Assembly (NCBI RefSeq): GCF_000317895.1
Contig: NC_019567.1
Coordinates: 3,348,001 to 3,412,000, forward strand
Direction: 5' to 3'
DNA: 64,000 bases
Source: Bdellovibrio bacteriovorus str. Tiberius
Lineage (GTDB): Bacteria; Bdellovibrionota; Bdellovibrionia; Bdellovibrionales; Bdellovibrionaceae
Positions 7,342 through 45,005 of the stretch are shown piece after piece; position 1 is the stretch's first letter, and every line of letters starts with the position of its first letter. A model generated the notes under the pieces. That model did no database searches, had not been told where the DNA came from, and saw only the letters and a list, made by a program, of their open reading frames with translations. The translations under genes and the position numbers were made by a program.

Positions 7342-7365
7342 TTTATCGAATCAAAATTAACTCTG

Positions 7366-7392: not shown

Positions 7393-7491
7393 ATTGTCGT
7401 TCGACATTGAATTTTTGAAATTTACTTAGCGAAGGTCCAAAAAAAACAATTGGACTGTCAGAAAAGACCGGACCGACTTCATGCTTGGTGT

Positions 7492-8226
7492 ATGCCAAAG
7501 ATCAGCTATCAAATCATTCCGCTTCATCATGTGTGCGATACTCAAAAAGAACTTCTGAACGAAGTTTACGGACTGTGGGAGGACACCTTCGGGCGCGTCC
7601 TGAACCGCGCCGGAGTTGAACTGGATCACGACGATTTCTTCCGTTGTCATGCAGCGGGAGTACTGCTGTATAAAAACGAAATTGTCGGATTCAATCTGTT
7701 CACCACTTTCGATCTGAATCTGCGTGCGCATCAGAATCACAACTATTTCAAAGAACTTGATCCGCAATTCGTAAAATCAGTCACCAAACAGGGCAACAAA
7801 ATCATGACCATGGAATATTTCACGCTGGCCCCGTTGTGGCGCAAGCAGTCCCAGGAAATCCCCTGGGGTGAGATTCTGACGGGCCTGGGTTTGTTCTATA
7901 TGGATCAGTCCCCGGCGGACTTTGTCGTCGGAACCCCGCGGGTGGATTTGAAAGTCGATACCATGTGCGAACGCCTGGGGGCCACAATCCAGGGGCACGT
8001 CGAAAAAATGAACTACAAGTGCGCCATTGCCGTGTTTGAGAAAAAAGTTGAGCGAAGCTTTGAAAACCCGCTGACTCACCACTGGGTGCGCAGGCTGTGG
8101 GACAAATACACTCACCACAAAGCTGAAAAGCATGCCAAACAAGGGCAGCAGACCGTCGTTGTCGCGCCGGAAAGCTCCGCCTCACCGCCTCCATTTGAGC
8201 TGACCCTTGCCGAGGCGGCCGCCTAA
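7492..8226 (+). CDS. Conserved hypothetical protein, possibly an N-acyltransferase-like fold
   Basis: 244 aa from the ATG at 7492; the frame is open 14 codons further upstream and neither start has a clear ribosome site. The central part (VLLYKNEIVGFNLFTTFDL, then MEYFTLAPLWRKQ) resembles the beta4-beta5 region of GNAT or acyl-homoserine-lactone-synthase-like proteins. I cannot identify an acyl-CoA loop with certainty. The last 40 residues are low-complexity (His/Lys, then Pro/Ala-rich). It lies 40 bp before the GST-like gene. Confidence 0.55.
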   Translation: MPKISYQIIPLHHVCDTQKELLNEVYGLWEDTFGRVLNRAGVELDHDDFFRCHAAGVLLYKNEIVGFNLFTTFDLNLRAHQNHNYFKELDPQFVKSVTKQGNKIMTMEYFTLAPLWRKQSQEIPWGEILTGLGLFYMDQSPADFVVGTPRVDLKVDTMCERLGATIQGHVEKMNYKCAIAVFEKKVERSFENPLTHHWVRRLWDKYTHHKAEKHAKQGQQTVVVAPESSASPPPFELTLAEAAA

Positions 8227-8266
8227 GACTACACTCTAGGCCATTCCCATACCCGGAGGTATTGAA

Positions 8267-8935
8267 ATGGCCTATCACGTTCACAGCGACAAACCATATT
8301 TTGACCTGATCATCGGAGACAAAACCTTTTCATCCTGGTCCATGCGTGCGTGGCTGGTGGCTGTACAATCCGGTTTGCCATTCCGTGAAATCAACATCAC
8401 TTTGGATCAGCCAAAAACAGCAGAACAGATCGCAAAGTTTTCTCCATCCGGTAAAGTGCCGGCTTTGAAACAAGGCAAAATTATCCTGTGGGATTCTTTG
8501 GCGATTGCCGAATACCTGAATGAACTTTCTCCGGAAGCGAAATTGTGGCCTGAAGACATCGGCGCCCGCGCACTGGCCCGCACCTATGCGGCGGAAGTGC
8601 ATTCCGGTTTTGCCTCCCTGCGCTCGCAACTGAGCATGGATCTGAAACACACCGAAGAAGTCCGTCACCTGACCCCGGGAACCATCGCGGACATCAACCG
8701 CATCCTGGAAATGTGGACCAACGCTTTGAAAGTCAGCGAAGGGCCTTACCTGTTTGGTGACTTCAGCATTGCCGATGCGTTCTTTGCCCCGATTGTCTTC
8801 CGCTTCCTGTCTTACAAAATTCAGATCAAAGACAAGATGGCCAAAGCCTATATGAAGAACATCCAGGATCACCATGGCGTGCAATTCTGGGTCGAAGAAG
8901 CGATGAAAGAGAAAACTCCCCGTAAAGTCTTTTGA
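8267..8935 (+). CDS. Glutathione S-transferase family protein
   Basis: 222 aa: a thioredoxin-like N-terminal domain (residues about 8-85) with SSWSMRAWL at the active-site position, cis-Pro motif GKVPAL and the SLAIAEYL glutathione-binding turn, then an all-alpha domain with FSIADAFFAPI. The serine-rich N-terminal motif suggests a Zeta/YfcF-like GST. The substrate is unknown; cytoplasmic. GGAGG lies 8 nt before the ATG. The likely terminator is the hairpin that overlaps the next start codon. Confidence 0.88.
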   Translation: MAYHVHSDKPYFDLIIGDKTFSSWSMRAWLVAVQSGLPFREINITLDQPKTAEQIAKFSPSGKVPALKQGKIILWDSLAIAEYLNELSPEAKLWPEDIGARALARTYAAEVHSGFASLRSQLSMDLKHTEEVRHLTPGTIADINRILEMWTNALKVSEGPYLFGDFSIADAFFAPIVFRFLSYKIQIKDKMAKAYMKNIQDHHGVQFWVEEAMKEKTPRKVF

Positions 8936-8988
8936 CAGTCGGGAAAAGCTTTCACTAAGCCCCGACAACCCCTTTACATATAGACACG

Positions 8989-9028
8989 AAAAGGTGAACT
9001 TCTGATCCCATGAAGTTCACCTTTTTTT
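8989..9028 (+). terminator. Terminator-like hairpin containing the start codon of the subtilase gene
   Basis: AAAAGGTGAACTTC (8989-9002) and GAAGTTCACCTTTT (9012-9025) form a perfect 14-bp stem with a 9-nt loop, and T continues to 9028: a textbook intrinsic terminator. The ATG of the S8 protease (9010-9012) lies at the loop/3'-arm junction. The only purine-rich ribosome-site candidate, AGGTG at 8992-8996, is in the 5' arm. The hairpin should therefore stop read-through from the GST gene and hide the protease ribosome site if transcription starts upstream. The regulatory role is inferred. Confidence 0.8.
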
Positions 9029-10590
9029 CTTTCCTGCTCGTTCTTTTCACCAGCTCCCAAGCCCTGGCTGAGCGCGCGATCGTGATGATGAACGACACCA
9101 AGGCATTTGAGCGAACGCTGAACACGCGTGGCACCTGGTCCCAGATCATTCCGGGAAAAATTGAAAAAAGTCTTCCGCAATTAAACACCTTTATCGTGGA
9201 CACCAACACCCCTGCTGAACTGGAACAACTGAAGTTGTCCCCCGGTGTTGCCTACGTCGAAAAAGAATACTTCCATCCAGCCCCACCGGTTGTCAGTTCT
9301 GGAGTGGAGCTTGTTAACACCGACGTCGTCAAACCCGGCGTCCCGTGGGGCCTGAAGGCCGTGAAGGCTCCGCAAGCCTGGGCGCTTTCCAACAAGGGTG
9401 AAGGCGTGCGCGTGCTGGTTTTGGATAGCGGCATGAACGCCAGCCATCCCTCACTTGCACCGAACTTTGAAAAAGGTCGTAACTTTACCGGCGATGGCGA
9501 TGTGACGGATTTCTCGGATCGCACCGGGCATGGCACCCACGTGGGGGGTACTATTGCGGCGGCCGATGACGGTGAAGGTTTTTCTGGCGTGGCGCCAAAG
9601 GCGACTCTATTGGCGGGTAAAGTCTGTCAGGATGGCGGCTGTTCAAATGTGGCCATCGTGGCGGCGATCTCTTGGGGTATTGATCAGGGGGTGGATGTGA
9701 TGAATCTGTCCCTGGGAAGCTCGGGCAGCGGGTCCCCCGCGGAACAAGCAGCCCTGCTTCGTGCAGACCAGGCTGGCATCAGTGTCGTGGCCGCCACGGG
9801 CAATTATGGAGTGAATGAAGTGCTGTTCCCCGCCTCGGCGTCGACTGTGATTGGTGTTGGTGCGGTGGACAGGAATTTGAGTCATGCGGTGTTTTCCCAG
9901 TACGGACCGGAAGTTGCCGTGGTGGCTCCGGGCGTGCAGATTGTTTCAACTATTCCACTGGGTTCGGGTCGCTCCAGCACGCTGAAAATTTCCAATTCCA
10001 GTTTGCAGGAAACCAGCACCGCCTATCACCTGCGCGGCACCGCCACACCCTTTGAGGATCTGACCCGCACGGTGGTGGATTGTGGATCCGGCCTGCCGTC
10101 GAATTTTGCGGGCAAGGACGTCAAAGACAAACACGTTCTGATCACCATGGGTGCAGCCCCGATAGAGGATCTGATCCGCAATGCCATGCGTGCAGGGGCC
10201 AACAGCGTAATCGTGGTGAACAATGCCGCGGGCGTCATCGACACCCGGTTGTTCGATCGCGACAATGTGCTGTTCGCGGTGGGCATGTTTGTCGATGCAA
10301 AACTGGGGGCAAAGATCCGTGCCACTATAAAAGATCAGCCAGAAACACAGATCACTCTGAACACCGTCCCGACCAGTTACAAAGAAACATTCGGCACCTC
10401 TATGGCCAGCCCCCATGTGGCGGGCGTGGTGGCTTTGGTGAAAGCTGCCAATAAAGACATTAAACCTTCTCAGATGAAGGCTTTGATCATGAAGACGGCT
10501 TCTCCTATCACCCCGAACCCAGACAACCGTTTTGGCAAAGGCCTGGTCAATGCCGAAGCCGCCGTTAAAGCTGCCCTAAGTTCCCAATAG
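9010..10590 (+). CDS. Secreted S8 family subtilisin-like serine protease with inserted PA domain
   Basis: 526 aa. Signal peptide (1 to about 20), an I9-type propeptide (about 22-88), then the peptidase domain with D139 (VLVLDSG), H174 (GHGTHVGG) and S464 (GTSMASPHVAG). A protease-associated (PA) domain is inserted at about residues 335-450 (includes DLIRNAMRAGANSVIVVNNA). The start is fixed by the signal peptide, although it sits inside a hairpin. The enzyme is expected to be exported and self-activated by propeptide removal; use in prey digestion is inference from the likely organism. Confidence 0.95.
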   Translation: MKFTFFSFLLVLFTSSQALAERAIVMMNDTKAFERTLNTRGTWSQIIPGKIEKSLPQLNTFIVDTNTPAELEQLKLSPGVAYVEKEYFHPAPPVVSSGVELVNTDVVKPGVPWGLKAVKAPQAWALSNKGEGVRVLVLDSGMNASHPSLAPNFEKGRNFTGDGDVTDFSDRTGHGTHVGGTIAAADDGEGFSGVAPKATLLAGKVCQDGGCSNVAIVAAISWGIDQGVDVMNLSLGSSGSGSPAEQAALLRADQAGISVVAATGNYGVNEVLFPASASTVIGVGAVDRNLSHAVFSQYGPEVAVVAPGVQIVSTIPLGSGRSSTLKISNSSLQETSTAYHLRGTATPFEDLTRTVVDCGSGLPSNFAGKDVKDKHVLITMGAAPIEDLIRNAMRAGANSVIVVNNAAGVIDTRLFDRDNVLFAVGMFVDAKLGAKIRATIKDQPETQITLNTVPTSYKETFGTSMASPHVAGVVALVKAANKDIKPSQMKALIMKTASPITPNPDNRFGKGLVNAEAAVKAALSSQ

Positions 10591-10702
10591 TGTCGGCTGT
10601 CAAATTATGAGACAGTCATTTGATTTCAGACGGCTCTTATTTGCATATAAAACTGGCCGGAACCTTGCTGATTAGGACGCCAGTGCTTATTGGAGTGCGA
10701 AC

Positions 10703-11152
10703 ATGATGAAGCTCTTGTTGGTTGTTGCTGTGATTATTGGATTGGGTGCTTTCCGTGCGGAAGCCGCCCCGCTTTGCCATGTGGCGAAGTCCACAAAGCT
10801 TGCGATGGATCAGCGCGATGATCTGCGCCTGAAATGTCTGAAGCAGAAAAAGAATCAAATCAACGTAACTCAGTGTCTGGCTGTGGCTGGCACCATGGAG
10901 TATTCCACCAACGCTGAAGACGCCCGCCTGGTTTGTCTGTATGACCTTCGCCAACAGCCAAATCTGAAAGAATGCCACGCAATCTCCAAGCTGATGGAGT
11001 TCCCGGACTCGGGCGACGAAGCTCGCTGGGAATGCCTGCGCAAGTTCAACCGCACGATCTCTAAAAAACAATGCCAGAAGCTGGCGAAGTCCATGAGCTA
11101 TCCAGCCAATGAAGAGCGCGCACAAGTTTATTGCGAGCAGGAGCTGCAGTAG
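10703..11152 (+). CDS. Exported protein built of four Cys-paired repeats
   Basis: 149 aa with a signal peptide (1 to about 23). The mature chain is four tandem units of about 33 residues, each starting with Cys and carrying a second Cys about 20 residues later: CHVAKSTKLAM...LKCLK, CLAVAGTMEYS...LVCLY, CHAISKLMEFP...WECLR, CQKLAKSMSYP...YCEQE. Each unit also has a D/E-rich helix and an Arg before the second Cys. Each unit probably forms a disulfide-tied helical hairpin. GGAG lies 8 nt before the first ATG. No family is recognised. Confidence 0.75.
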   Translation: MMKLLLVVAVIIGLGAFRAEAAPLCHVAKSTKLAMDQRDDLRLKCLKQKKNQINVTQCLAVAGTMEYSTNAEDARLVCLYDLRQQPNLKECHAISKLMEFPDSGDEARWECLRKFNRTISKKQCQKLAKSMSYPANEERAQVYCEQELQ

Positions 11153-11395
11153 TATTGTCCGGTTTTATAGGCAGTCCTAGGCAACATCAGAGACCCGGTC
11201 TAACATGAATGTATGACAAGACTTGCTGGCGACTCCAATATCAGGAGTCCTCAGCTATGAATAAAACCTCGTATTTTTCTTCATTATTTATTTACAAACA
11301 TTACAGAATTGCAAAAAACCAGACTTGCCCCCGCGTCCAGTCAACCCTATTCTGTCCTCATGGAACTAGGTCCTCAGAAAGGGTTTTCCGTGAAC
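11153..11395. other. Leader region of the TetR gene, no convincing gene
   Basis: 243 bases between the Cys-repeat gene and the TetR-family gene. It holds a short hairpin GACTCC (11231-11236)/GGAGTC (11244-11249) and an AT-rich stretch near 11265-11320. A short frame opens at 11257 and runs out of frame into the TetR gene; its composition does not support a gene. No clear promoter boxes are seen. Confidence 0.4.
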
Positions 11396-12067
11396 ATGAT
11401 GTCATCTGAAGAAAAAACGAAGAAAACTAAGATTATTGTAAAGGCTCCCACACAAGAACGTTCTCGCCAGACAGTAGCAACAATCCTTGATGCCTGCTCC
11501 CGCCTCTTGGTCAGTGAAGGTTTCTATTCAATCACGACCGATAAAATTGCCAAAGAAGCCGGCGTTAGCATCGGTTCTTTGTATCAGTTCTTTGGTAACA
11601 AAGAGTCTGTGGTTCAGGCGGTTGTGAAAAACATCCTTGAAGAAGACAAACGCATCTTCAGCGAGAAAATGCGCGCCATTTCCCCATTGGCACCTGAACA
11701 ACGCGTGAAGGGCATGATTGAACTGGCTGTTGAAACCACTCGTCGCAACTCGGAACTTCGCTCTAAACTGACCACCATTCAGTACTATGTTGCCGAAGCT
11801 GCATATATGTCCGAGACAATCCGTTTCTTCCAGGAAGTTGTCCGCTACAACCTTCCGCAGATCCCGGGCCGCGACATGGAAAAGGTTTCTTACATCATGG
11901 TGAATGCCTTCATCGGCCTGACCAACACCATGGCTATCGACAACCCGACTGCGATCCACGATGCAGCCGTGGTTGAAGAGATCTACCAGCTGTTCCACAA
12001 ATTCCTGGATCTGGGCGCATCTGCGACAGCTCCAGCTATGAACCGCAGCAAAGGTGATTTCATCTAA
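11396..12067 (+). CDS. TetR/AcrR family transcriptional regulator
   Basis: 223 aa from the ATG at 11396 (AGAAAGGG about 11 nt upstream; an in-frame ATG at 11360 is the alternative). The DNA-binding helix-turn-helix is within RSRQTVATILDACSRLL...ITTDKIAKEAGVSIGSLYQFF, the normal TetR layout. The C-terminal ligand domain is family-variable. It is not adjacent to an efflux or catabolic operon, so the ligand and target are unknown. It is closed by a bidirectional terminator. Confidence 0.88.
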   Translation: MMSSEEKTKKTKIIVKAPTQERSRQTVATILDACSRLLVSEGFYSITTDKIAKEAGVSIGSLYQFFGNKESVVQAVVKNILEEDKRIFSEKMRAISPLAPEQRVKGMIELAVETTRRNSELRSKLTTIQYYVAEAAYMSETIRFFQEVVRYNLPQIPGRDMEKVSYIMVNAFIGLTNTMAIDNPTAIHDAAVVEEIYQLFHKFLDLGASATAPAMNRSKGDFI

Positions 12068-12090
12068 GCTGTTTGCACAAATGAAAATAA

Positions 12091-12120
12091 AAAAGGGAGC
12101 TTTCAAAGCTCCCTTTTTTT
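12091..12120. terminator. Bidirectional terminator between TetR and lytic transglycosylase genes
   Basis: AAAAGGGAGCT and AGCTCCCTTTT form a long stem with A and T tracts on both sides, so it can terminate both convergent genes. Confidence 0.9.
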
Positions 12121-12144
12121 ATTCCCAATTTTCAGTCTCGGTCT

Positions 12145-13329
12145 CTATTTTCTTTTGTCTTCCATCGCCACCATGCGGTCACGGCGGGCCAGGGTGATCA
12201 AAGCGACATTGTATTTGTCCTTTGGTACCGCGATCACCGTTTTAGCTGGGATCGGGTGACCCTTGCGGGCCTTGAAAGTCAGGTGCGGATTGAACACCTG
12301 GGCTTTGCGATCATCGCCATCAAACCAAGCAACGATTTCTTTGTACTTCACAGACACCGGCAATTTCAAATCCTGGGAATCCAAAGGCTTGGACCAAACC
12401 ACAGAACCGAAATACTTACCTGCGTTCTTTTCAACTTCCAATGCCGCCAGGAAGCTTGCATAGAAGTTACGGGATGCGAAACCGAAGGTCTTGCTGGATT
12501 TCACATCCGTCACCAGTTCACCCAGTTCGCGGGTGCCGTACTTTTCAGTCAGCTTGCGCACGCCCGTAGGACCGTGATTGTAACCCGTCACCGCCAGTGG
12601 CCAGGAATTCAGCATGGAATAGTTCTGACGAAGAAGTTTCGCCGCCAGCTTTGTCGCTTCCATCGGATGGTTGCGGTTGTCCACGGTCGCAGAAATCATT
12701 TTATAAGGCTTTGCCGTGTAAGGCATGATCTGCCAAAGACCGCTTGCACCCACTTTGGAACGAGCCATGATATTGAAAGAACTTTCAACAAACGCCAGAC
12801 GCGTCAGTTCCACCGGAACTTTGGCATCGCGGAAGATCTTTTCCATGTCTTCGATATAACGACCGGAATAGAAGATTGCATCCTGCATGCGGTCTTTTTG
12901 ACCCAGCTGGAAACGCAGACGCTCTTTGGCTTCCGGCGACGTCAGTTTTAAAGCGATTTCTTTTTTAACTTCATCGACACGATTTTGCTTCGCACGCTCA
13001 GTCGTCAGGCCCGTCAGATCAACGATCTCGTAAACCTTCTCAACATTTTCAGAATCGTGAATCACACCCTGATTGGTGGAATATTTAGTATAGATATCAA
13101 TCCAGAACTGAACTTGCTTGTCCATGCCCTTCGGGATGGAGAAAGCGGTCTCATTGTATCCCAGGGACGCCGTTTGATCTGCGAACACCGGAGCACGCCA
13201 AGGACGGCTTTCTTCCGGGCTTCTTCCCAGCACCTGCGGCACCACTTGCTCAGCGATATTCCCCTGCGCCATCGCAACAGGAGCTCCAAGCATCAAAACG
13301 TATAGAACTGAGACACTGAGTTTCATCAT
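12145..13329 (-). CDS. Lytic murein transglycosylase (SLT / MltD-like)
   Basis: 394 aa from the ATG at 13329, chosen because GGAAGGTGG lies 7 nt upstream; the frame opens 7 codons earlier. Signal peptide at 1 to about 21. The SLT domain lies near residues 170-300: the catalytic Glu is in AFVESSFN, followed by GASGLWQIMP and the VTGYNHGP motif. It cleaves the MurNAc-GlcNAc bond to form anhydro-muropeptides. No LysM repeats follow, unlike E. coli MltD. It lies 31 nt downstream of the dacB-like gene, forming a peptidoglycan-processing operon. Confidence 0.9.
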   Translation of the reverse strand: MMKLSVSVLYVLMLGAPVAMAQGNIAEQVVPQVLGRSPEESRPWRAPVFADQTASLGYNETAFSIPKGMDKQVQFWIDIYTKYSTNQGVIHDSENVEKVYEIVDLTGLTTERAKQNRVDEVKKEIALKLTSPEAKERLRFQLGQKDRMQDAIFYSGRYIEDMEKIFRDAKVPVELTRLAFVESSFNIMARSKVGASGLWQIMPYTAKPYKMISATVDNRNHPMEATKLAAKLLRQNYSMLNSWPLAVTGYNHGPTGVRKLTEKYGTRELGELVTDVKSSKTFGFASRNFYASFLAALEVEKNAGKYFGSVVWSKPLDSQDLKLPVSVKYKEIVAWFDGDDRKAQVFNPHLTFKARKGHPIPAKTVIAVPKDKYNVALITLARRDRMVAMEDKRK

Positions 13330-34222: not shown

Positions 34223-35113
34223 ATGAAAAACATGAACCCACGTCTTCGCGGATCTTTGGAAATTTCTGTAGCGAGCGTGGGTTTTGGTTTTTTAGGGATC
34301 TTCGGCACCTGGGCATTTGAATCCGGCATGAATGTCGGAGAGCTTCTGTCCTATCGCTTTGCTTTGGCGGCCGTCCTTTTGTGGATCTTCCTGCTGCTGT
34401 TCAAACCTTCCTGGGTCAAACTGAATTTGCGCCAGACCGTGATTGCGGCACTGCTGGGGATTTTCGGCTACGCGTTTTTCTCGACCATGTATTTCATGGC
34501 CATCGACGGGCTGAGCATCACCCTCGCCGCTTTACTGCTTTATACCTATCCGTTCTGGGTGAACATTTTTTCCCATTTCTTCACTCAAGATAAGATATCC
34601 GGAAAGGAAGCTCTGTGTTTGGTCGCGGCTTCCTCGGGCCTGGTGATGCTTTTGTGGGGCCATATAGAAGTTAAAAATATCTGGGCCGTGGCAGCAGGTC
34701 TTGCCGCAGCCATCAGCTATGCGATCTACGTTTTACTGTCCGGGCGCCTGCAAAAAAATGTTCGCCCTATCACCTCCGCACTGTATGTAATCACGTTCGG
34801 TGCGCTGGCGCTTTCCGTTTTCCATCATCCTCACTATTCGGCGATCAGCAACCTTTCGAATATTCAAGCCACCAGCATTCTGGGCCTGGCCCTTGTTTGC
34901 ACGATCATCCCCCTGACCATGGAGCTGGCCGCCTTGCAAAAGCTGAAAAGCACCGAAGTGGCCTTGCTAATGATGATCGAGCCGATCACTGCGGCCCTGA
35001 TGGGGGCTTTGATTTTCCATGAAAGACTGACACCAGTTCAAATAGTCGGCGCTTTAATCATTGGCGCTGCCTTGGTGACGAACACCCTATATTCCCGTCC
35101 GGTCTCTGAATAA
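34223..35113 (+). CDS. EamA/DMT superfamily transporter
   Basis: 296 aa with ten predicted membrane helices in two five-helix EamA halves (first about 10-145, second about 155-292). The end of the second half shows the typical EPITAALMGALIFHERLTPVQ. An inner-membrane exporter or importer of small metabolites; substrate unknown. It starts 12 nt after the pseudouridine synthase stop, so it is probably in the same transcript. Confidence 0.88.
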   Translation: MKNMNPRLRGSLEISVASVGFGFLGIFGTWAFESGMNVGELLSYRFALAAVLLWIFLLLFKPSWVKLNLRQTVIAALLGIFGYAFFSTMYFMAIDGLSITLAALLLYTYPFWVNIFSHFFTQDKISGKEALCLVAASSGLVMLLWGHIEVKNIWAVAAGLAAAISYAIYVLLSGRLQKNVRPITSALYVITFGALALSVFHHPHYSAISNLSNIQATSILGLALVCTIIPLTMELAALQKLKSTEVALLMMIEPITAALMGALIFHERLTPVQIVGALIIGAALVTNTLYSRPVSE

Positions 35114-35216: not shown

Positions 35217-35224
35217 GCCGATAA
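35217..35224 (+). promoter_or_regulatory. FliA-like -10 element of fibre gene 1
   Basis: GCCGATAA, identical to the sigma-28 -10 consensus, 7 nt before the ATG at 35232. A match to the -35 TAAAGTTT at the usual spacing is not seen. There is no Shine-Dalgarno, so transcription may start at the ATG itself. Confidence 0.5.
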
Positions 35225-35231
35225 GAAATAC

Positions 35232-38200
35232 ATGAGAAACGGAACGTATACTGTCTTAATTCTCGTATTCCTTTGGACTGGAGTGGCCTTGGCTGCTCCA
35301 AATTCTCTGACATATCAAGGACGTATCGTTAATTCTGACGGCAAAGGTTTGGAATACAACAACGTCAGCTTCCTTTTTGAAATCACAAATCCTTCAGGCA
35401 CTTGCGTGCTTTATCGCGAACAAAAAAACGGTGTGAATCTTCAGAACTCCGGCGGTGTATTTGACGTGCCTATTGGTTCTGGCACGAAGATGTTCCCGAC
35501 CGATCCTCTTTACACTTTGATTGATTCTTTTAACAATGCTCGCTCCCACGACTGTTCTGGCGGCGCCTCTTACAGCGCGGTGGCCGGTGATGCGCGTTTG
35601 TTGAAAGTGCAGTTCCATGACGGTTCCGGATGGAAGGTAATTTCTCCGGCCAATGAAATTCGTTCGGTGCCTTATTCTGCTTATTCTTATTCTGCAGAAC
35701 GCCTGGGTACCAAAACTGAAACTGACTTCCTGGCTAAAGCCGGTCTGCCGACGTGCGGGGCTGGAACTTATCTGACCTGGAACGGTACAACGATGACCTG
35801 TGCCGGGATCAGTGGCGCCAACGGTGGTACGGTTACCGATGTTACTTCTTCCAATTCATATATTACGATTGCCAATGGCACTTCCACCCCGGCGCTGACC
35901 CTGAATGTGGGCACAACGGCGGGCACGGTGGCAGCTGGTAATGATGCCCGCTTCTCTGATGCTCGCACCCCGACAGGAACTGCTGCCGGAGACCTGGATG
36001 GCACTTATCCAAATCCAACTGTGGCAAAACTTCAGGGCACAGCCGTTTCCAATGCTGCTCCGGGCAGCGGGAACTTCCTTAAATACAATGGCACTGCCTG
36101 GACACCTTCAGCGATTGCGCAAAGTGATGTCACAGGCCTTTCTGCGACTTTAAGTTCTTATATGACCGACGCCGAGTTCAGCGCAGCCGTCGCCAATGCG
36201 GGCTGTGCGGCTTATGAAACCATGTACTGGAATGCCGTAGCGGGCTTTTCTTGTCAGGCAATCAATGTGTCTTTGGCGGGTGACGTCGGCGGCACAATCG
36301 GCGCGTCTTCCGTCAATAAAATCAAAGGCGTGACTGTTGATACTACCGGCCTGACCACAGGTCAGGTTTTGAAGTACGACGGAACTAAATGGGCACCGGC
36401 GGCGGATAATGATTCCAACTCTGGCGGTACGGTTACAAACATCGCAACGGGCACGGGTCTTTCCGGCGGTCCAATCACTTCGACGGGTACGATTTCTTTG
36501 GCTAATACCGCGGTCACCGCGGCTTCATATGGTTCCACCACTCAGGTGGGCACCTTCACCGTTGATGCTCAAGGTCGTCTGACGGCGGCTTCGAATGCGG
36601 CGATTGCCTTCCCGGTGACGACTGTTGCGGGCAGAACTGGTGCTGTCGTTTTAGATGCCGCTGATATTACAAGCGGTGCCGGAAAATATCTGACCTATCG
36701 CCCGAACAACACGGCTTGTACCGATGGCCAGGTTTTGAAATGGATCAATGCGAATTCTCGTTGGGAGTGTGCGAACGATACAGACACTTCTTCCGGCGGT
36801 ACCATCACCAACATCGCTACCGGCACGGGTCTTTCCGGTGGTCCCATCACTTCGACGGGCACGATCTCTTTGGCTAATACCGCGGTCACCGCGGCTTCGT
36901 ATGGTTCCACCACTCAGGTGGGCACATTCACTGTCGATGCTCAAGGGCGTCTGACAGCAGCTTCGAATGCGGCGATCGCCTTCCCGGTGACGACCGTTGC
37001 GGGCAGAACGGGCGCCGTCACTATCGATGTTGGGGATCTCGGAAACGGCGCTGGCAAATACTTTATCTATCGTCCGAACAACACAGCTTGTACTGATGGC
37101 CAGGTTTTAAAATGGGTTGCGGCAAATAATCGTTGGGAGTGCGGTACTGATACCGACACTTCTTCCGGTGGTACCGTAACCAATATCGCAACTGGCACAG
37201 GTCTGACTGGTGGTCCGATCACTTCCACTGGCACGATTGCATTGGCCAACACGGCCGTGACTGCCGGTTCTTACACTCGCGCTTCGATCACGGTGGATGC
37301 TCAAGGTCGTTTGACCGCAGCTTCCAGTGGCGCGGCTATCAACCTGACTTCTGATGTGACGGGCACCTTGCCGATTGCAAATGGCGGCACGGGCGCAACA
37401 ACAGCAATTGCGGCCTTCAATGGTCTTTCCCCTCTGACAACCAAAGGGGATGTTCTTGGTAATGACGGCACCAACGACGTTCGCCTGCCCGCAGGCACGA
37501 ACGGTCAGGTGCTGACGGCGGACTCATCTCAAACTTCCGGATTGAAATGGGCCACCCCGACTGTGGGTACTGTAACCAATGTGACTGGTACGGCTCCGAT
37601 TCAGGTTGCCACGGGAACAACGACTCCGGTGATTTCACTAAGCACCGTCCCGGTGGCGAGTGGTGGTACGGGCGCAACATCGTTGACGGCGGATCGTCTG
37701 CTGGTTTCCAACGGCACGGGCTCTGCGGTGATTCCATTTACTTGCGGCACGGCGCAGATGCTGACCTTTAATGCTTCCGGGGTTATGGGTTGTACGAACT
37801 TTGCCTCGACGTCTTTCTTTGCCAACGGTGGTAACACTTTGGCGGGGAATGCGACCTTGGGCACTAATGACGCTTATTCTTTGGCGCTTGAAACCAACAA
37901 CGTCACACGCATGACAATTTCCAATGCGGGTTATGTCGGTATTGGCCAATCCCCGGATACAAATGCGGGTCTGGCGGTGATGGCTCCCTCAACAACCAAG
38001 TCTGCGCTCATTTTGAATTCTCCGGCGGCGGGTAAAGTAGAGCTGGATTTCCTGCGCAACGGAACCTGGCTGGGCACATTCGGCTACGCCAACACGGCGA
38101 CTTCTGATTTATATGTCACTAACGGCGCCAACGCGCACATTATCTTTGATACCAACAACACCGAAGTCATGCGCATCACCAACGATGGCAAAGTCGGTAT

Positions 38201-39839
38201 CGACGCAGAAAGCCCAGGCGCCCGCTTCCAGGTGGGTGAATGGAACGGCACTAATAACTACAATGCCGTGTTCGTGGGTTCTTATCACAACACTTTGGGA
38301 CAAGCGCAGTTCGTCGGTAACTGGAATAGCGCTGGTTACTGGGGTATCGGGCCGGTAGCCAATCCGGCAAACAGCACCGTGGGTATCGGAAATGCCAATG
38401 CTCAGGGTGACTGGCGTTCGACTCAGGATTTGAAGCTCTATGTTCCGGGCGGCTTGGGTCTGGGTGATGCTTTGGCTCCGGAAAGAATCATTCACGTCAA
38501 AGGCACGGGCGGCGGCAATGATGACGTTTATGTACAAAGCATCGGCAACACCGGCGAACCCGCCTACATTCTGACCAAGGCGCGCAGTAACACGGGCGTC
38601 GAAGCTGCGGTTCTGGCTGGTGATTCTTTGGGCTTCCTGTCCATGCGTGGTTATGATGGGGCTGCTTATCAAAGCGGTGCTTCCATCGCCGGGGTGGCTG
38701 AAGCTGACTTTGCCACAACGAAATCCGCTTACATGTCATTTGCGACTTTGAACAACGGATCTTCCGGTGAAAGAATGCGCATCACCAGCGCAGGTTCTGT
38801 GGGTATCGGATCCACGGCACCGACGGTAAGACTGCATGTTCAAGGTAACAGCTACACCAATTCCTCGGGCGCATTCGAACGCAATGAAGATGTTCAAGCT
38901 GGTCCCGGAGTTCAACTAATGAAATCCCGTGGGACGGCTTCAGCGAAAACAGCTGTTCAGTCGGGCGATGCTTTAGGGAACATTCTGTTTAACGGTTACG
39001 GCGATGCCACAACAACTGGCCTTGGCTCGCAGATTCAAAGTATCGCTTCAGCGACTTGGACATCCACTGCAGTTCCCGCCGACTTGGCGTTCCTGACCCA
39101 TACGGGCACTGGCAACATCAATACTCCGACCGAGCGCATGCGTATTTACAGCAATGGGTGGATCACGATGGGTGTCAGCTCCGGCTCGACCGGCGGGGCT
39201 CCACTTCTTCTGAAAAATGCTACCGCTCCTTATATTGGCTTTGACGAAGTGGACAGCTCTGGAAAGTTCTTCATGGGACTTGATGGTGGTAACTTCTGGA
39301 TTCGTCCGGGACCAACCACTTCCTCCAGTGACGCCATCACGGTCACCGCTGCCGGCAACGTCTATATTGGCGGCAACTCAGGTTCGCGCAAATTCTTTGT
39401 GAACGGAACTTCCGGCGGTACTGCGGCCTGGGAAAACTTGTCCGATGCGCGTTTGAAGACCGACATCCAGGTTGTGCCGGATTCTTTACAGAAGATCCTT
39501 TCCTTGCGTGGTGTGACCTTCAACTGGCGCCACGATGTCAGACCGGATCTGGATCTTATTGAGAAAAAAGACATGGGTGTGATCGCCCAGGACGTCGAAC
39601 GTGTATTCCCCGAAGCCGTCGACAAAGATGAGAAAGGCTTCCGTGCAGTCGCCTATACTAAACTGATCGGTCCGATGATTGAAGCCTTTAAAGAGCTGTA
39701 TAAGTCTGTATCCGGCGTTAAGGCCGAAGTTCAGGCCCAGAAGCGTGAAATCGCCTCTTTGAAACAAGAGAACCAGGAGCTTCGTGAAGCGATTTGCGAG
39801 GTCAATCCTAAAGCCAAGGTCTGTCAGAAAAAGAAGTAA
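35232..39839 (+). CDS. Giant trimeric fibre/adhesin with C-terminal S74 chaperone, copy 1
   Basis: 1535 aa. Signal peptide (1-21), then a conserved head (PNSLTYQGRI ... GVFDVPIGSGTK, about 22-165), a shaft of 124-residue repeats (about 398-700), a variable region with VGIG-type motifs (about 860-1395), and a C-terminal S74 intramolecular chaperone. The self-cleaving dyad is S1404 and K1409 in SDARLK; about 130 residues would be released after trimer folding. The coiled-coil tail ends in KKK. It resembles phage tail fibres and the mosaic adhesive trimer fibres reported in Bdellovibrio for prey recognition. A paralogue follows directly. Confidence 0.9.
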   Translation: MRNGTYTVLILVFLWTGVALAAPNSLTYQGRIVNSDGKGLEYNNVSFLFEITNPSGTCVLYREQKNGVNLQNSGGVFDVPIGSGTKMFPTDPLYTLIDSFNNARSHDCSGGASYSAVAGDARLLKVQFHDGSGWKVISPANEIRSVPYSAYSYSAERLGTKTETDFLAKAGLPTCGAGTYLTWNGTTMTCAGISGANGGTVTDVTSSNSYITIANGTSTPALTLNVGTTAGTVAAGNDARFSDARTPTGTAAGDLDGTYPNPTVAKLQGTAVSNAAPGSGNFLKYNGTAWTPSAIAQSDVTGLSATLSSYMTDAEFSAAVANAGCAAYETMYWNAVAGFSCQAINVSLAGDVGGTIGASSVNKIKGVTVDTTGLTTGQVLKYDGTKWAPAADNDSNSGGTVTNIATGTGLSGGPITSTGTISLANTAVTAASYGSTTQVGTFTVDAQGRLTAASNAAIAFPVTTVAGRTGAVVLDAADITSGAGKYLTYRPNNTACTDGQVLKWINANSRWECANDTDTSSGGTITNIATGTGLSGGPITSTGTISLANTAVTAASYGSTTQVGTFTVDAQGRLTAASNAAIAFPVTTVAGRTGAVTIDVGDLGNGAGKYFIYRPNNTACTDGQVLKWVAANNRWECGTDTDTSSGGTVTNIATGTGLTGGPITSTGTIALANTAVTAGSYTRASITVDAQGRLTAASSGAAINLTSDVTGTLPIANGGTGATTAIAAFNGLSPLTTKGDVLGNDGTNDVRLPAGTNGQVLTADSSQTSGLKWATPTVGTVTNVTGTAPIQVATGTTTPVISLSTVPVASGGTGATSLTADRLLVSNGTGSAVIPFTCGTAQMLTFNASGVMGCTNFASTSFFANGGNTLAGNATLGTNDAYSLALETNNVTRMTISNAGYVGIGQSPDTNAGLAVMAPSTTKSALILNSPAAGKVELDFLRNGTWLGTFGYANTATSDLYVTNGANAHIIFDTNNTEVMRITNDGKVGIDAESPGARFQVGEWNGTNNYNAVFVGSYHNTLGQAQFVGNWNSAGYWGIGPVANPANSTVGIGNANAQGDWRSTQDLKLYVPGGLGLGDALAPERIIHVKGTGGGNDDVYVQSIGNTGEPAYILTKARSNTGVEAAVLAGDSLGFLSMRGYDGAAYQSGASIAGVAEADFATTKSAYMSFATLNNGSSGERMRITSAGSVGIGSTAPTVRLHVQGNSYTNSSGAFERNEDVQAGPGVQLMKSRGTASAKTAVQSGDALGNILFNGYGDATTTGLGSQIQSIASATWTSTAVPADLAFLTHTGTGNINTPTERMRIYSNGWITMGVSSGSTGGAPLLLKNATAPYIGFDEVDSSGKFFMGLDGGNFWIRPGPTTSSSDAITVTAAGNVYIGGNSGSRKFFVNGTSGGTAAWENLSDARLKTDIQVVPDSLQKILSLRGVTFNWRHDVRPDLDLIEKKDMGVIAQDVERVFPEAVDKDEKGFRAVAYTKLIGPMIEAFKELYKSVSGVKAEVQAQKREIASLKQENQELREAICEVNPKAKVCQKKK
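36423..37350 (+). repeat. 372-bp tandem coding repeats in fibre gene 1
   Basis: Copies start at GGCGGTAC (36423), GGCGGTAC (36795) and GGTGGTAC (37167), a spacing of exactly 372 bp (124 codons). Each encodes GGTxTNIATGTGL, TVDAQGRLTAAS and, in the first two, the RPNNTACTDGQVLKW block. Copies 1 and 2 are close at the DNA level; copy 3 diverges after its first 50 codons. Confidence 0.9.
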
Positions 39840-39847
39840 TATTCATT

Positions 39848-39874
39848 AAATCCCTGAAGAGATTCAGGGATTTA
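39848..39874 (+). terminator. Hairpin between the two fibre genes
   Basis: AAATCCCTGAA (39848-39858) and TTCAGGGATTT (39863-39873) form a perfect 11-bp stem with a GAGA loop. The T tract is short, so it may be a weak terminator or a 3'-end stabiliser. Confidence 0.6.
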
Positions 39875-39896
39875 CCTCAGGTATTCCTGTTAAAAA

Positions 39897-39904
39897 GCCG
39901 ATAA
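39897..39904 (+). promoter_or_regulatory. FliA-like -10 element of fibre gene 2
   Basis: GCCGATAA 7 nt before the ATG at 39912. The surrounding CTGTTAA.AAGCCGATAAGAA and the first 17 coding bases are nearly identical to those of fibre gene 1. Confidence 0.5.
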
Positions 39905-39911
39905 GAAGTGC

Positions 39912-42900
39912 ATGAGAAACGGAACGTATCTGATTGCAATTCTCTCATTGCTTACGAGCATATCTGTGTTGGCTTCGCCCAACTCTTTGACCTATCAGGG
40001 TCGCATTCTGAAATCCGATGGCCATGCCTTGGAATACAACAACGTCAGTTTCCTTTTTGAAATCACCAATCCCAACGGCAGTTGCGTGATCTATCGCGAA
40101 CAAAAAGACGGCGTGAACATGGTGAACTCGGCCGGTGTGTTTGATGTGCCGATTGGCTCCGGCACAAAACTTTTCCCTGCCGACCCCCTGTTTACTTTGC
40201 TTGAATCTTTCAACAACTCGAAAGTTCACAACTGCTTTGGCGGTTCTACTTATCCCGCACAAGCTGGCGACACACGCCTGCTTAAAGTGCAATTCCACGA
40301 TGGTTCGGGCTGGAAGATCATCTCGCCTTCCAATGAAATCCGCACGGTTCCTTACGCGGCTTATGCTTTGTCGTCAGAAAAACTTGGCACCAAAACCGAA
40401 GAGGACTTCCTGCAAAAAGCCGGTTTGCCAACTTGCGCGGCTGGCACCTTCCTAAGCTGGAATGGCACGACACTAAGCTGCGCTGGTGTTTCCGGCGCCA
40501 ATGGTGGAACTGTTTCTGATGTCACATCTGCCAACTCCTACATCACTATCACCAATGGCACGACCACTCCGCAGCTGACTTTGAATGTCGGACAAAACGC
40601 CAATCAGGTTGCTGCCGGGAATGATGCACGCTTTAGTGATGCCCGCGTTCCAACAGGCGCCGCTGCCGGTGATCTGGGTGGCACTTATCCAAATCCATCA
40701 GTTGCAAAAATTCAGGGCGTGGCGATTTCTGCCACTGCTCCGACGAACGGTCACTTTCTGAAATTCAACGGCACTCAATGGCTGTCGGCACAAATCGGCA
40801 CCGGAGATGTGAATGGCCTGACGGCCACTTTGAACAACTATATGACCCAAGCTGATTTCAATACAGCTGTCGCCAACGCCAACTGCGCGGCTCACCAAAC
40901 CATGTACTGGAATGCGGTGTCGGGCTTTAACTGTCAATCCATCAACGTCTCTGTTGCGGGTGATGTCAGTGGCACCATCGGCGCTGTGGCCGTGAATAAA
41001 ATCAAAGGCATCGCGGTGGACACCACGGGTCTGGTTACTGGCCAGGTGCTGAAATATGACGGCACCAAATTCGCGCCAGCAGCTGACAATGACGCCAACT
41101 CTGGCGGTACCGTTACAAACATTGCAACGGGCACGGGCCTTTCGGGCGGTCCGATCACATCCACCGGTACAATTTCTTTGGCCAACACAGCAGTCACTCC
41201 GGCTGTCTATGGCTCAACCACACAAGTTGCTACATTTACGGTCGATGCTCAAGGTCGCTTAACCGCAGCGAGCAACGCTGCTATCGCCTTCCCGGTAACA
41301 ACCGTTGCTGGTCGCACAGGTGCTGTGAATTTAGATGTGGGAGACGTGGGTAACGGTGCGGGCAAGTACTTTGTTTATCGTCCGAACAACACTGCTTGTA
41401 CTGATGGCCAGGTATTGAAATGGATCAATGCCAATTCCCGCTGGGAATGTGCGAATGATACTGATACCTCTTCCGGCGGCACTGTCACCAACATCGCAAC
41501 CGGCACGGGTTTAACCGGCGGTCCGATCACTGCGACCGGCACCATTGCTCTGGCCAATACGTCCGTAGCAGCGGGTTCTTACACTCGAGCATCGATCACG
41601 GTGGATGCTCAAGGCCGATTGACGGCGGCTTCCAGTGGCGCGGCTATCAATCTGACTTCAGATATCACCGGCACTTTGCCCATTGCAAATGGCGGTACCG
41701 GAGCAACAACAGCTTTAGGTGCATTCAATGCACTGTCTCCTTTGACAACCAAAGGTGACGTGCTGGTTCGTGATGGCTCGAACAACATCCGTCTGCCCGT
41801 GGGTACGAACGGTCAGGTGCTGACTGCCGACAGTGCTGTTGCTGCAGGTGTAAAATGGGCCACACCAAACGCCGGAACCGTCACAAGTGTTTCCGGAACG
41901 GCTCCGATTCAGGTTGCCACCGGAACAACAACTCCGGTGATTTCACTTAGCACCGTCCCGGTGGCGAGTGGTGGTACGGGCGTGACGTCCCTGACTGGAG
42001 ACCGCCTGCTGGTTTCCAATGGCACAGGCTCTGCGGTGATTCCGTTTACTTGTGGCACTGGTCAGATGCTGACCTTCAATGCGTCTGGCGTGATGGGTTG
42101 TACGACTTATTCTTCTTCAGGCATTTTTGCCAATGGCGGCAACAGCTTCGGCGCCGCCGCGGTTCTGGGCACAAACGATGCGCAGTCTTTGACATTTGAA
42201 ACAGATGCCAATCCCCGCATGACTATTCTTGCCACTGGCAAAGTCGGCGTGAATGAAACCGCTCCGACAGGGAATCTGCATCTGTCCAACACCGGTGCCG
42301 TGGATCTGCGCATTCAGGATAAATCAGGAACTCCGGCCACACTGCGCATTCTTTCCCAGAGTGGTGCCAACTATATCGAATCAGGTACTGACTTTACAAA
42401 TACGACATCCGCTGACTTGCACTTCACCGATATGATGGGTGTGAACAAGTGGATGACCATCAAAGCCGACGGTAAAGTGGGTATTAACACCAATGCACCG
42501 GCAACGAACTTCCAGGTCAAAGGGGGCGTGGTGGTCGGTGATCTGACTCCGTTCCCGGCCAACTTCAGCGTTATCACAACCGAAGCTTTAAATGCTACCT
42601 TGCGCAATCATACTGAAACAACCGGCAACTATGTGGCTTCGGGTGCTTACCAGCGCTTCAGTCCTGCTGCCAATTCAACCATGTCGACACATGCTCTGGT
42701 CAGTATCGTTGTTCCTAACGTGCCGTCGGGTGTGACTGTAACAAGTCAGAATGAAGCCTTCCACGCCAATGCCACACGCAACCGCTATGCGGGGAACGTG
42801 GATGCGGGAACAGTTTCAAACCTGACTTCCGGGCAATTCGTCTATGGTCATGAAAATTATGTCGTGGGCAATGCCCCTGCGACCACGGACGCCTTTGGTA

Positions 42901-43967
42901 TTCGCATCGTTCCTCACTTGCAGTCCGGAACGGTCACAAATATGTACGACCTCTTTCTGCAAAACCCAAGCACCGGTGGCACTGTCACCAATCGCTACGG
43001 CATCTATCAACAGAATACCGGAGCCAGAAACTATTTCGCCGGCGCTACTGGATTTAACACCGCCACCACGCCACTGGCCAACGTACACATCGGAAGCAGT
43101 GGCGCTGGCAACGCGGCTTATTCTTCCTTCCAGATGGGTAACGACGCGACATCAAGCAACAACTTCCATATCGTGAATGAGTACGCCACCAACCGTCGTC
43201 TGAACTTCTACAAAGGCAACCTGGGTTCCGGCGGCCTTTTGATGTCCTTAAGTGACACCGGATATTTTGTTGTCGGTGAAACGGCTTCCACGGGTGGTGG
43301 TGTACTATCGCTTAAGCCTGGTGGAATCGATCACACTTACATTCAGTTCTATGCGCGCACAGCTTCCCCTACCACTCGCACGGGTTACTTCGGTACACCC
43401 GCTGCTGGCAGCACCAACATGAACGTTGCCAATGAGATGGAAGGTGGACAGATTGATTTCCTCACCAAAAATGGTGGCAGCGTCAGCGCCAAGATGACTT
43501 TGTCGGCGGTAGGAAACCTGACCACGGCAGGAACTGTGAACGGCGCTTCTGATATTCGTCTGAAAAAAGACATCCACGTTCTGGATGGCAGTCTGGATAA
43601 AATCCTGCAGCTGAAACCGTCGTCCTATCACTGGAAAGACCCGAATGCGGACCCTCGCCTGCAGATGGGCTTCATCGCACAAGAGCTTGAAAAAGTTTAC
43701 CCACACGTGGTGGACGAAAACAAAAAAGGCATCAAAGCCGTTTCTTACATCAACATGATCGCACCGATCACAAGTGCGGTGCAGGAGCTTTACCACAAGT
43801 TCAAAGCGGTCCTCACGAATCATGACGAGCGGATTTCCAATCTGGAAACGCAGATGACCGCCTTACAAAAGCAAAATGAGCTTCTGCTCAAGCAGAATGA
43901 AGATCTAATGAAATATATCAAGTCTCAGAATGAGAACACTCAACGTCTGCCGGCTTCAAGCCGATAA
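39912..43967 (+). CDS. Giant trimeric fibre/adhesin with C-terminal S74 chaperone, copy 2
   Basis: 1351 aa, a paralogue of the preceding gene. Head and shaft are closely related (same MRNGTY start, same LTYQGRI ... YNNVSFLFEI block, two 124-residue repeats), whereas residues from about 735 to 1200 differ. The S74 dyad is S1213 and K1218 in SDIRLK; the C-terminal coiled coil is longer (NHDERISNLETQMTALQKQN). Tandem paralogues with different distal parts suggest alternative receptor specificities. The stop codon is the TAA of a GCCGATAA element for the next gene. Confidence 0.9.
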   Translation: MRNGTYLIAILSLLTSISVLASPNSLTYQGRILKSDGHALEYNNVSFLFEITNPNGSCVIYREQKDGVNMVNSAGVFDVPIGSGTKLFPADPLFTLLESFNNSKVHNCFGGSTYPAQAGDTRLLKVQFHDGSGWKIISPSNEIRTVPYAAYALSSEKLGTKTEEDFLQKAGLPTCAAGTFLSWNGTTLSCAGVSGANGGTVSDVTSANSYITITNGTTTPQLTLNVGQNANQVAAGNDARFSDARVPTGAAAGDLGGTYPNPSVAKIQGVAISATAPTNGHFLKFNGTQWLSAQIGTGDVNGLTATLNNYMTQADFNTAVANANCAAHQTMYWNAVSGFNCQSINVSVAGDVSGTIGAVAVNKIKGIAVDTTGLVTGQVLKYDGTKFAPAADNDANSGGTVTNIATGTGLSGGPITSTGTISLANTAVTPAVYGSTTQVATFTVDAQGRLTAASNAAIAFPVTTVAGRTGAVNLDVGDVGNGAGKYFVYRPNNTACTDGQVLKWINANSRWECANDTDTSSGGTVTNIATGTGLTGGPITATGTIALANTSVAAGSYTRASITVDAQGRLTAASSGAAINLTSDITGTLPIANGGTGATTALGAFNALSPLTTKGDVLVRDGSNNIRLPVGTNGQVLTADSAVAAGVKWATPNAGTVTSVSGTAPIQVATGTTTPVISLSTVPVASGGTGVTSLTGDRLLVSNGTGSAVIPFTCGTGQMLTFNASGVMGCTTYSSSGIFANGGNSFGAAAVLGTNDAQSLTFETDANPRMTILATGKVGVNETAPTGNLHLSNTGAVDLRIQDKSGTPATLRILSQSGANYIESGTDFTNTTSADLHFTDMMGVNKWMTIKADGKVGINTNAPATNFQVKGGVVVGDLTPFPANFSVITTEALNATLRNHTETTGNYVASGAYQRFSPAANSTMSTHALVSIVVPNVPSGVTVTSQNEAFHANATRNRYAGNVDAGTVSNLTSGQFVYGHENYVVGNAPATTDAFGIRIVPHLQSGTVTNMYDLFLQNPSTGGTVTNRYGIYQQNTGARNYFAGATGFNTATTPLANVHIGSSGAGNAAYSSFQMGNDATSSNNFHIVNEYATNRRLNFYKGNLGSGGLLMSLSDTGYFVVGETASTGGGVLSLKPGGIDHTYIQFYARTASPTTRTGYFGTPAAGSTNMNVANEMEGGQIDFLTKNGGSVSAKMTLSAVGNLTTAGTVNGASDIRLKKDIHVLDGSLDKILQLKPSSYHWKDPNADPRLQMGFIAQELEKVYPHVVDENKKGIKAVSYINMIAPITSAVQELYHKFKAVLTNHDERISNLETQMTALQKQNELLLKQNEDLMKYIKSQNENTQRLPASSR
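41103..41650 (+). repeat. 372-bp coding repeat in fibre gene 2
   Basis: GGCGGTAC at 41103 and GGCGGCAC at 41475 are 372 bp apart and start the same 124-codon unit as in fibre gene 1. The second copy is partial and corresponds to copy 3 of that gene. Some stretches (for example around 41935-41980 and 37630-37670) are almost identical between the two genes. Confidence 0.85.
43960..43967 (+). promoter_or_regulatory. FliA-like -10 element overlapping the fibre 2 stop
   Basis: GCCGATAA whose last three bases are the stop codon of fibre gene 2. It lies 22 nt before the GTG start of the lipoprotein gene, leaving room for a short leader with GAGG. Confidence 0.45.
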
Positions 43968-43989: not shown

Positions 43990-44280
43990 GTGAAAAGGAT
44001 CGTTATAGCTTCACTACTAATACTCGCCACGGGATGTTCTATGGAAGCATCTCTGGAGCAGCTTGCTGAAGTTGCTCCTCCACCAATCAAATTCCAGGAT
44101 CCGGCAAAGACCACAGGTTTGGTGTCCGGCTCCACGCAAACAGGCACGGCCACTGGTGGCGGTGTGACTTATCACGTGCAAAGCACTGTGGGTAACTACA
44201 TGTCCGGTATCGAACAGAAGACCGCGGATGACACCTACAAGGTGTACAGTTCGGTTCAGGGCGCCATCGTTTCCAACTAA
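43990..44280 (+). CDS. Small lipoprotein of the fibre locus
   Basis: 96 aa from a GTG start at 43990, chosen because GAGG lies 6 nt upstream and the next residues form a lipoprotein signal (KRIVIASLLILATGC). The mature chain has a Gly/Thr-rich stretch (STQTGTATGGGVT) and no recognised domain. Location after the two fibres suggests an anchor or assembly factor; this is inference. Confidence 0.7.
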   Translation: MKRIVIASLLILATGCSMEASLEQLAEVAPPPIKFQDPAKTTGLVSGSTQTGTATGGGVTYHVQSTVGNYMSGIEQKTADDTYKVYSSVQGAIVSN

Positions 44281-44306: not shown

Positions 44307-44334
44307 TTAAGTTTCAAAATAAGACAGCCGATAA
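44307..44334 (+). promoter_or_regulatory. FliA (sigma-28) type promoter
   Basis: TTAAGTTT (44307-44314) and GCCGATAA (44327-44334) are separated by 12 nt. The consensus is TAAAGTTT, 11 nt, GCCGATAA, so 15 of 16 positions agree with one extra spacer base. It drives the gene starting at 44367. Confidence 0.65.
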
Positions 44335-44366: not shown

Positions 44367-45005
44367 ATGATGTTCTTATTGGCGATACTTTTCGGATTCA
44401 CGACTCCATCCCACGCGGCTGATATGTCCGTGGTGGATGTCCGCCGCAATATCACGCTGTCTGAAACCGACACCATCTATAAAGACTTCTACATCAATGC
44501 CGGACCCGGTTCCGGGTTAAAAAAGAATCTGGTGGTCACCGCCGTTCGCAAGATCAACATCCGCGATGCCAGTGGCGCCAACGCTGTTGGGGAAATCCTG
44601 GTTCCCGTGGGCCAGCTGAAAATTATCGCCATTTATGACCGCGTGGCCGTGGCCCGCGAATTCACCCTACTTTCCCGCGATGAACTGCCAATGCTGGAAC
44701 AAATCGGCATCATGACCGGTGACCGCATCGACCTGGGCGGGTCCTTTATTGACAACTCCAAACCCAAAGCCAAAAAGAAGGTCGCAGAGGCCGAAATGCC
44801 CCCTGCCACCGAGGTTGTGGTAACGGCCGTGACCACGGTCACCACCCCCGCTTTGACCGCCCAAAACCCTGTAGTTTCTGCAAACCCCACCCAGGTGGTT
44901 CCTGCGGTAAATACAGCTCCGGCGGCCCTGGCTTTGACCCCTCCCCAAACAGCGGAAAGACTTGATAATTCGGTGGTTTCTGATAACACCACTCGGAATG
45001 AGTGA
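44367..45005 (+). CDS. Exported protein of the fibre locus
   Basis: 212 aa from the ATG at 44367 (GGAAGGG upstream; the frame is open earlier). Signal peptide MMFLLAILFGFTTPSHA. The central part (VVDVRRNITLSETDTIYKDF ... KLIAIYDRVAVAREFTLLSR type strands) is beta-rich and somewhat like the C-terminal fold of flagellar protein FlgT; the last 90 residues are Pro/Thr/Val/Ala-rich and disordered. It overlaps prmA by 8 bp. A role in fibre display is possible but not shown. Confidence 0.65.
   Translation: MMFLLAILFGFTTPSHAADMSVVDVRRNITLSETDTIYKDFYINAGPGSGLKKNLVVTAVRKINIRDASGANAVGEILVPVGQLKIIAIYDRVAVAREFTLLSRDELPMLEQIGIMTGDRIDLGGSFIDNSKPKAKKKVAEAEMPPATEVVVTAVTTVTTPALTAQNPVVSANPTQVVPAVNTAPAALALTPPQTAERLDNSVVSDNTTRNE

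Follow-up and report, generated by a model that had tools for sequence, protein, structure and literature searches.

A Small Lipoprotein Family Accompanying Mosaic Adhesive Trimer Genes in Bdellovibrio as a Candidate Partner of the Fibre Head

Introduction

How predatory bacteria hold surface fibres in place while the distal tips of these fibres differ widely is the question raised by a locus in the 3,988,594-bp genome of Bdellovibrio bacteriovorus str. Tiberius. The analyzed window is the whole stretch of 64,000 nucleotides from positions 3,348,001 to 3,412,000 of contig NC_019567.1; all window features named below lie on its + strand. It contains two tandem genes of long fibre proteins, F1 (35232–39839, 1535 amino acids (aa)) and F2 (39912–43967, 1351 aa), followed by the gene of a small lipoprotein (43990–44280). 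The fibres belong to the mosaic adhesive trimers (MATs) described by Caulton et al. 2024 (PMC10769870). According to the main text of that paper, MATs are displayed on the predator surface and have trimeric tips, and strain HD100 contains 13 members with the S74 domain and 8 without it; deletion of single MATs had little effect and gave weak phenotypes, and the surface element that binds the MAT head was not named by the authors. An earlier note, made from the sequence of this locus, had proposed a duplicated prey-range module with distinct tips and two small exported partners.

Lipoprotein Family and Its Association with MAT Genes

The putative lipoprotein is 96 aa in length and begins with a GTG start codon. 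Its lipobox LATGC, with Ser at position +2, was found by pattern, and the Cys-Ser pair is conserved in nearly all members of the family. The tail comprises approximately 50 residues with two beta-strand motifs and, in lipoproteins of the window type, is nearly invariant within the genus. Pfam, NCBIfam and PHROG contain no match to the window lipoprotein. A search around MAT genes found small lipoproteins resembling the window one that precede divergent MATs; in genome G000, the genes resembling Bd2734, Bd2740 and Bd3182 by length have one lipoprotein each. A family profile was built from 19 lipoproteins found around MAT genes, for which Pfam gave two single-member matches at chance level (E 0.025–0.028). 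Two rows of the search alignment deviate from the DNA, probably through mistyped residues immediately ahead of the lipid Cys, whereas the alignment for folding is exact. The profile found the divergent members in the window genome, most of which had been missed in a search with the window lipoprotein alone, and it matched proteins in 24/24 genomes of the genus and 57/141 genomes of the order. Judging from these searches, the lipoprotein appears to found a previously undescribed family that accompanies MAT genes across many species.

To avoid circularity, adjacency was assessed in held-out matches, that is, profile matches that were not used in building the profile and were chosen by the profile alone. 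Within the genus, 18/20 held-out matches are immediate neighbours of a MAT-head gene in the same orientation, at a distance of no more than ~90 bases and often with overlap; outside the genus, 7/20 have a MAT-head gene as neighbour. By our own estimate, well under one such case would be expected by chance, given approximately 20 MAT genes in 3.7 Mb. In all, 60 adjacent lipoprotein–MAT pairs were collected. The lipoprotein gene is immediately 5′ of the fibre gene in 46 pairs, often with a 4-base overlap with the fibre start, and follows the fibre gene in the other 14, all of which have a lipoprotein of the window type. In 28 further matches there is no such adjacency; 13 of these come from outside the genus, and several are located at contig ends.

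MAT heads are present in all 57 lipoprotein-bearing genomes and in 101/141 genomes overall (Fisher p 7e-12, uncorrected for kinship). Moreover, the window-type lipoprotein and the class A heads (YQGRI type) are both present or both absent in 23/24 genomes (p 0.002). The similarity of lipoproteins follows that of the heads: over the 60 pairs the Mantel r was 0.84, with a maximum of 0.53 in 5000 within-genome permutations. The value was 0.77 in a non-redundant set of 45 (permutation maximum 0.20) and 0.83 without the window-like types. The correlation of lipoprotein similarity with tip class (S74 or not) was 0.01. Adjacency, co-occurrence and co-variation with the head and not with the tip are thus directly supported. 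The tie between MAT head and lipoprotein appears to be new and is strong as an association; the mechanism considered below is a proposal.

The association might also arise if the lipoprotein and the MAT heads were linked passengers of co-expressed attack-phase loci that never come into physical contact. Sigma-28-like boxes upstream of both and the shared history of linked genes fit this explanation. However, the held-out adjacency of 18/20 with start overlaps, the agreement of lipoprotein type with head type even in comparison with within-genome permutation, and the persistence of the lipoprotein at fibre-free sites all argue against it, and we regard it as improbable.

Two further observations concern the family itself. 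Divergent members adjoin a signal-peptidase-like gene and no MAT gene at two loci (L106, 6647–6964, and L107, 5149–5508). In addition, a 210-residue lipoprotein with the family start (CSIEASLQDL) and an extra domain is encoded at L043, 5199–5831 (G000, 2968198–2968830); a short non-S74 MAT lies 0.86 kb away on the opposite strand.

Proposed Role of the Lipoprotein

MAT chains carry a Sec signal and no visible membrane anchor; the heads need some binding partner at the surface. A lipid-anchored tail that tracks head type and is shared by many unlinked heads fits the role of such a surface partner. Ranked first among the explanations, and in our opinion somewhat favoured, is that the MAT head is held at the outer membrane by the lipoprotein, which would be the surface element that the MAT authors did not name. 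The lipidation of this protein, its location in the outer membrane and at the surface, its contact with the head and the anchoring itself are inferred.

In the proposed mechanism, the F1 and F2 chains would be exported by Sec and would then trimerise with the help of the C-terminal S74 chaperone. The chaperone would cut itself off at the serine of the SDxRLK motif, exposing the tip that touches prey glycans. Self-cleavage and glycan contact of F1 and F2 are suggested by analogy with relatives: according to the main text of PMC10769870, self-cleavage was demonstrated at S782 of the S74 MAT Bd3182, and glycan binding was demonstrated for Bd2439. The lipoprotein would be lipidated at the Cys of LATGC and, having Ser at +2, would be sent to the outer membrane. 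Its conserved tail with the two beta-strand motifs would dock the conserved MAT head, and the fibre would thus be held on the predator. Many class A heads of one genome would be served by a single shared lipoprotein, while each divergent head would be paired with a matching lipoprotein gene, most often located immediately upstream of the fibre gene. Free exchange of tips would be possible because anchoring would depend on the head alone. The wider statement, namely, that MATs are held on the outer membrane by tiny lipoproteins fitting the head by type, with one shared for class A and one private to each divergent head, seems to us evenly balanced between true and false.

An export or assembly factor, i.e., a pilotin-like escort that moves the fibres across or into the outer membrane and is not a lasting anchor, would likewise account for the adjacency, the co-variation with the head and the sharing by many fibres. 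Because MATs carry a Sec signal and lack an evident membrane anchor, they need some export partner, which also suits such a factor. However, a tail of ~50 residues that carries two strand motifs and lacks a confidently predicted globular fold looks more like a docking peptide than a component of an export machine. We therefore place this explanation second and consider it rather unlikely.

Several points weigh against anchoring by the lipoprotein. Outside the genus, 13 of the 20 held-out lipoproteins lack a neighbouring MAT gene, and in genome G008 class A heads are present (E 2.6e-96) while the window-type lipoprotein is missing. A strict requirement of the lipoprotein for class A heads was rejected on the basis of G008; the partner is therefore either not strictly required or replaceable. 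Furthermore, adjacent genes are co-inherited, so matching trees can come from linkage, and the tip is farther away and freer to recombine. Linked inheritance explains part of the lipoprotein–head co-variation and is not separable here from contact. The single-chain model of the lipoprotein is too poor for use (predicted local distance difference test, pLDDT, 51.5); a protein that is not predicted to fold alone is compatible with folding on a partner, which proves nothing. Finally, its lipidation and its membrane and surface location are predictions from the amino acid sequence.

As a family that tracks MAT heads throughout the order, these lipoproteins give a named, testable candidate for the retention of fibres on the predator surface. 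As class A fibres apparently have one lipoprotein in common, deleting its gene alone could eliminate many redundant adhesins together, a result not achieved with single-fibre deletions. If anchoring by the lipoprotein is true, predators with this socket-and-plug layout could exchange prey-binding tips and gain or lose fibres at fixed sites with the anchor unchanged. The family also offers a sequence marker by which MAT systems can be sought in little-known relatives.

Tandem Fibre Genes

F1 and F2 have a common layout of signal peptide, MAT head, shaft of 124-residue repeats, distal tip region, S74 chaperone and C-terminal tail, F2 having one shaft unit fewer and another tip. The earlier note had described them as tandem paralogous S74 fibres with a common MRNGTY start, head and shaft, and the open reading frames (ORFs), both of which start with MRNGTY, the identity profile and the Pfam domain PF13884 bear this out. 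According to the NCBIfam search, both proteins match NF053851 (Bdello_MAT_N, mosaic adhesive trimer family; cut-off 60 bits) with E 7.9e-70 for F1 and 3.6e-72 for F2. In F1 the match covers residues 11–170, and the head domain, also found by the head profile, extends over about residues 22–180 (35295–35771); the F2 head lies at 39975–40451. Both proteins have the conserved N-terminal beta-rich domain of ~130 aa after the signal peptide that is typical of MATs. 3D modeling of the F2 head using AlphaFold shows an immunoglobulin-like (Ig-like) beta-sandwich, with pLDDT >90 over approximately residues 11–120 of a 162-residue construct. As for a known fold of the MAT head, Foldseek (best E 0.03 in PDB) and VIA-align (Z ≤6.3) gave only generic Ig-like sandwiches, and sequence search found no convincing match of the head or the lipoprotein to a solved structure.

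The 124-residue shaft repeats noted earlier were recovered in F1 by Tandem Repeats Finder as a 372-bp tandem array of 2.2 copies with 83% matches (36423–37237). One such unit of F1 is absent from F2, where the pairwise alignment has a gap at about F1 402–525. Identity between F1 and F2, computed pairwise in 50-column blocks, was 62–84% over the head and first shaft (F1 1–400) and 80–94% over the common shaft (F1 551–850). It fell to 56% at F1 851–900 and then to mostly 21–41% as far as the chaperone, where it was 41–47%. The distal divergence that had been placed from about residues 735–860 is thus real, with an onset nearer F1 870 and F2 745. The profiles reflect the mosaic build of MATs, with head and shaft conserved and the distal tip exchangeable. 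The tip region of F1 (about residues 870–1403, 37839–39440) is unlike that of F2 (about residues 745–1212, 42144–43547). Among PDB sequences, the distal part of F1 matched the solved MAT tips 8ol4 (resembled by residues 1091–1225), 8oml, 8ond and 8ojn, and that of F2 matched the solved tip 8ojn.

The C-terminal S74 domain with SDxxxK, characteristic of the S74 group, is present in both fibres. PF13884 (cut-off 22 bits) matched F1 at 1404–1463 with 62.2 bits (39441–39620) and F2 at 1213–1267 with 63.1 bits (43548–43712). S1404 opens SDARLK in F1 and S1213 opens SDIRLK in F2, exactly as had been claimed, and cleavage is predicted at these serines. Membership of the fibres in the family is directly supported: the suggested identity with mosaic adhesive trimers holds, given the matches to NF053851 and the similarity to solved tips. 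Because the MAT paper also describes such members, the fibres are known in kind, and F1 and F2 are, by their sequence features, ordinary members of the published MAT superfamily. Their trimeric state is probable by analogy with relatives whose trimeric tips were solved.

Chromosomal Site

Across the genus, the site has the order rluB–eamA–fibres–lipoprotein–secreted gene–prmA–rsmE. The EamA-family transporter gene (34223–35113) is its fixed upstream border, and the gene of a secreted protein next to prmA (44367–45005, start codon inferred) is the fixed downstream border. The number of fibres between these borders varies from none (G005, G002, G010) to one (G020), two (the window genome, G001, G007, G009, G013, G015, and also G004, with the first fibre broken) and three (G021, G012, G023). 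In G018 a sensor kinase occupies the fibre position. In another genus (G035, L150), the lipoprotein lies at the equivalent place with no fibres; retention of the lipoprotein at fibre-free sites is what one would expect if it serves fibres whose genes are located elsewhere. As for the two exported partners proposed earlier, the lipoprotein is indeed tied to MAT genes. The secreted protein was rejected as a part of the system because it occupies the place beside prmA at fibre-free sites too, including that of another genus (L150), and it is thus not a MAT partner.

Head identity between the window and other species is mostly 57–77%. When distal regions were compared between genomes, the window tips proved to be 87–94% identical to those of G001 and mostly 19–45% identical to those of other species. 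Tip exchange is therefore seen between species rather than between close strains.

These data bear on the idea that F1 and F2 form a dedicated prey-range module, in which two tips would serve different prey with the aid of two exported partners. Tandem arrays of 1–3 fibres with unrelated tips do recur at the site in other species. However, the window genome contains at least 10 further MAT loci (12 S74 matches at scattered loci and 17 MAT heads by profile), the site is fibre-free in several species, the secreted protein shows no tie to MATs, and the published single MAT deletions had little effect. A duplicated prey-range module therefore goes too far as a description of one of many MAT loci, where 0–3 fibres are found elsewhere and the tips are nearly those of G001, and we consider this explanation the least probable of all.

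Some further features of the site were observed. In two genomes (L081, 7361–11707; L082, 3531–6143), the position of the fibres beside the lipoprotein is occupied by a large protein that resembles a sensor kinase and has a response-regulator-like end. MAT fibres broken within the shaft occur in L074 (G004, 7788–12424), L078 (G019, 3533–7241) and L092 (G008, 6313–7833). No homopolymer tract is present at the breaks of L074 and L078; in L092, the truncated fibre ends in an NQSINQS-type repeat. Phase variation as the source of the broken first fibre of G004 was rejected because the break shows neither a homopolymer nor a short repeat.

Promoter Elements

The sigma-28 (FliA)-like −10 box CCGATA is located exactly 14 bases before the ATG of F1 (35218–35223) and 14 bases before that of F2 (39898–39903). 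A third sigma-28-like −10 box (43961–43966) overlaps the F2 stop codon and precedes the lipoprotein gene, which thus has its own box and also a GAGG ribosome site. Among class A MAT ORFs, 27/49 have CCGATA exactly 14 bases before the start, with a background expectation of 0.03 boxes per 110 bases. With the usual spacing of sigma-28 promoters, a box 14 bases upstream would put the transcription start at or next to the ATG; therefore, the fibre mRNAs may be leaderless. No clear −35 element of the FliA consensus TTAAG-N16-CCGATA was seen before F1, F2 or the lipoprotein, where only the −10 part is present.

Class A MAT genes carry the sequence CCGATAAG at the fixed distance of 14 bases upstream of the ATG (35218–35232 and 39898–39912 in the window), and they also share a coding element GGAACGT shortly after the ATG. 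A full match to the published attack-phase promoter TTAAG-N16-CCGATA lies at 44307–44333, before the secreted-protein gene upstream of prmA. FliA is the attack-phase regulator, with “cell-surface anchors” among its targets (PMC3627812).

Comparison with Known Systems

F1 and F2 share with the MAT superfamily, as presented in the main text of PMC10769870, the head family NF053851, the shaft, the similarity to solved tips and the S74 domain with SDxxxK. The lipoprotein partner and the fixed chromosomal site with 0–3 fibres are absent from that main text, where the word “lipoprotein” does not occur. Bd3182 resembles F1 and F2 in its S74 end and fibre layout and differs in its divergent head, F1 and F2 being longer. 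Its apparent orthologue in G000, judging by protein length and the place of the S74 domain, is the gene at 3300152 (922 aa), and here a lipoprotein gene overlaps the start of the fibre gene.

The S74 tail fibres and spikes of phages, such as the T5 L-shaped fibre and the K1F endosialidase, have the S74 chaperone in common with F1 and F2, and the distal parts of the latter gave PHROG tail-fibre matches, whereas F1 and F2 have a bacterial signal peptide and a MAT head. A phage or prophage origin of the locus was rejected: no phage record matches the DNA, and no viral contig searched encodes a relative of the head. As for the lipoprotein, the surface adhesin Bd0875 (PMC11003981) is an earlier example of a lipobox protein displayed at the surface of Bdellovibrio. 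Bd0875, however, is an adhesin itself, whereas the window lipoprotein is tiny and is proposed to hold other proteins.

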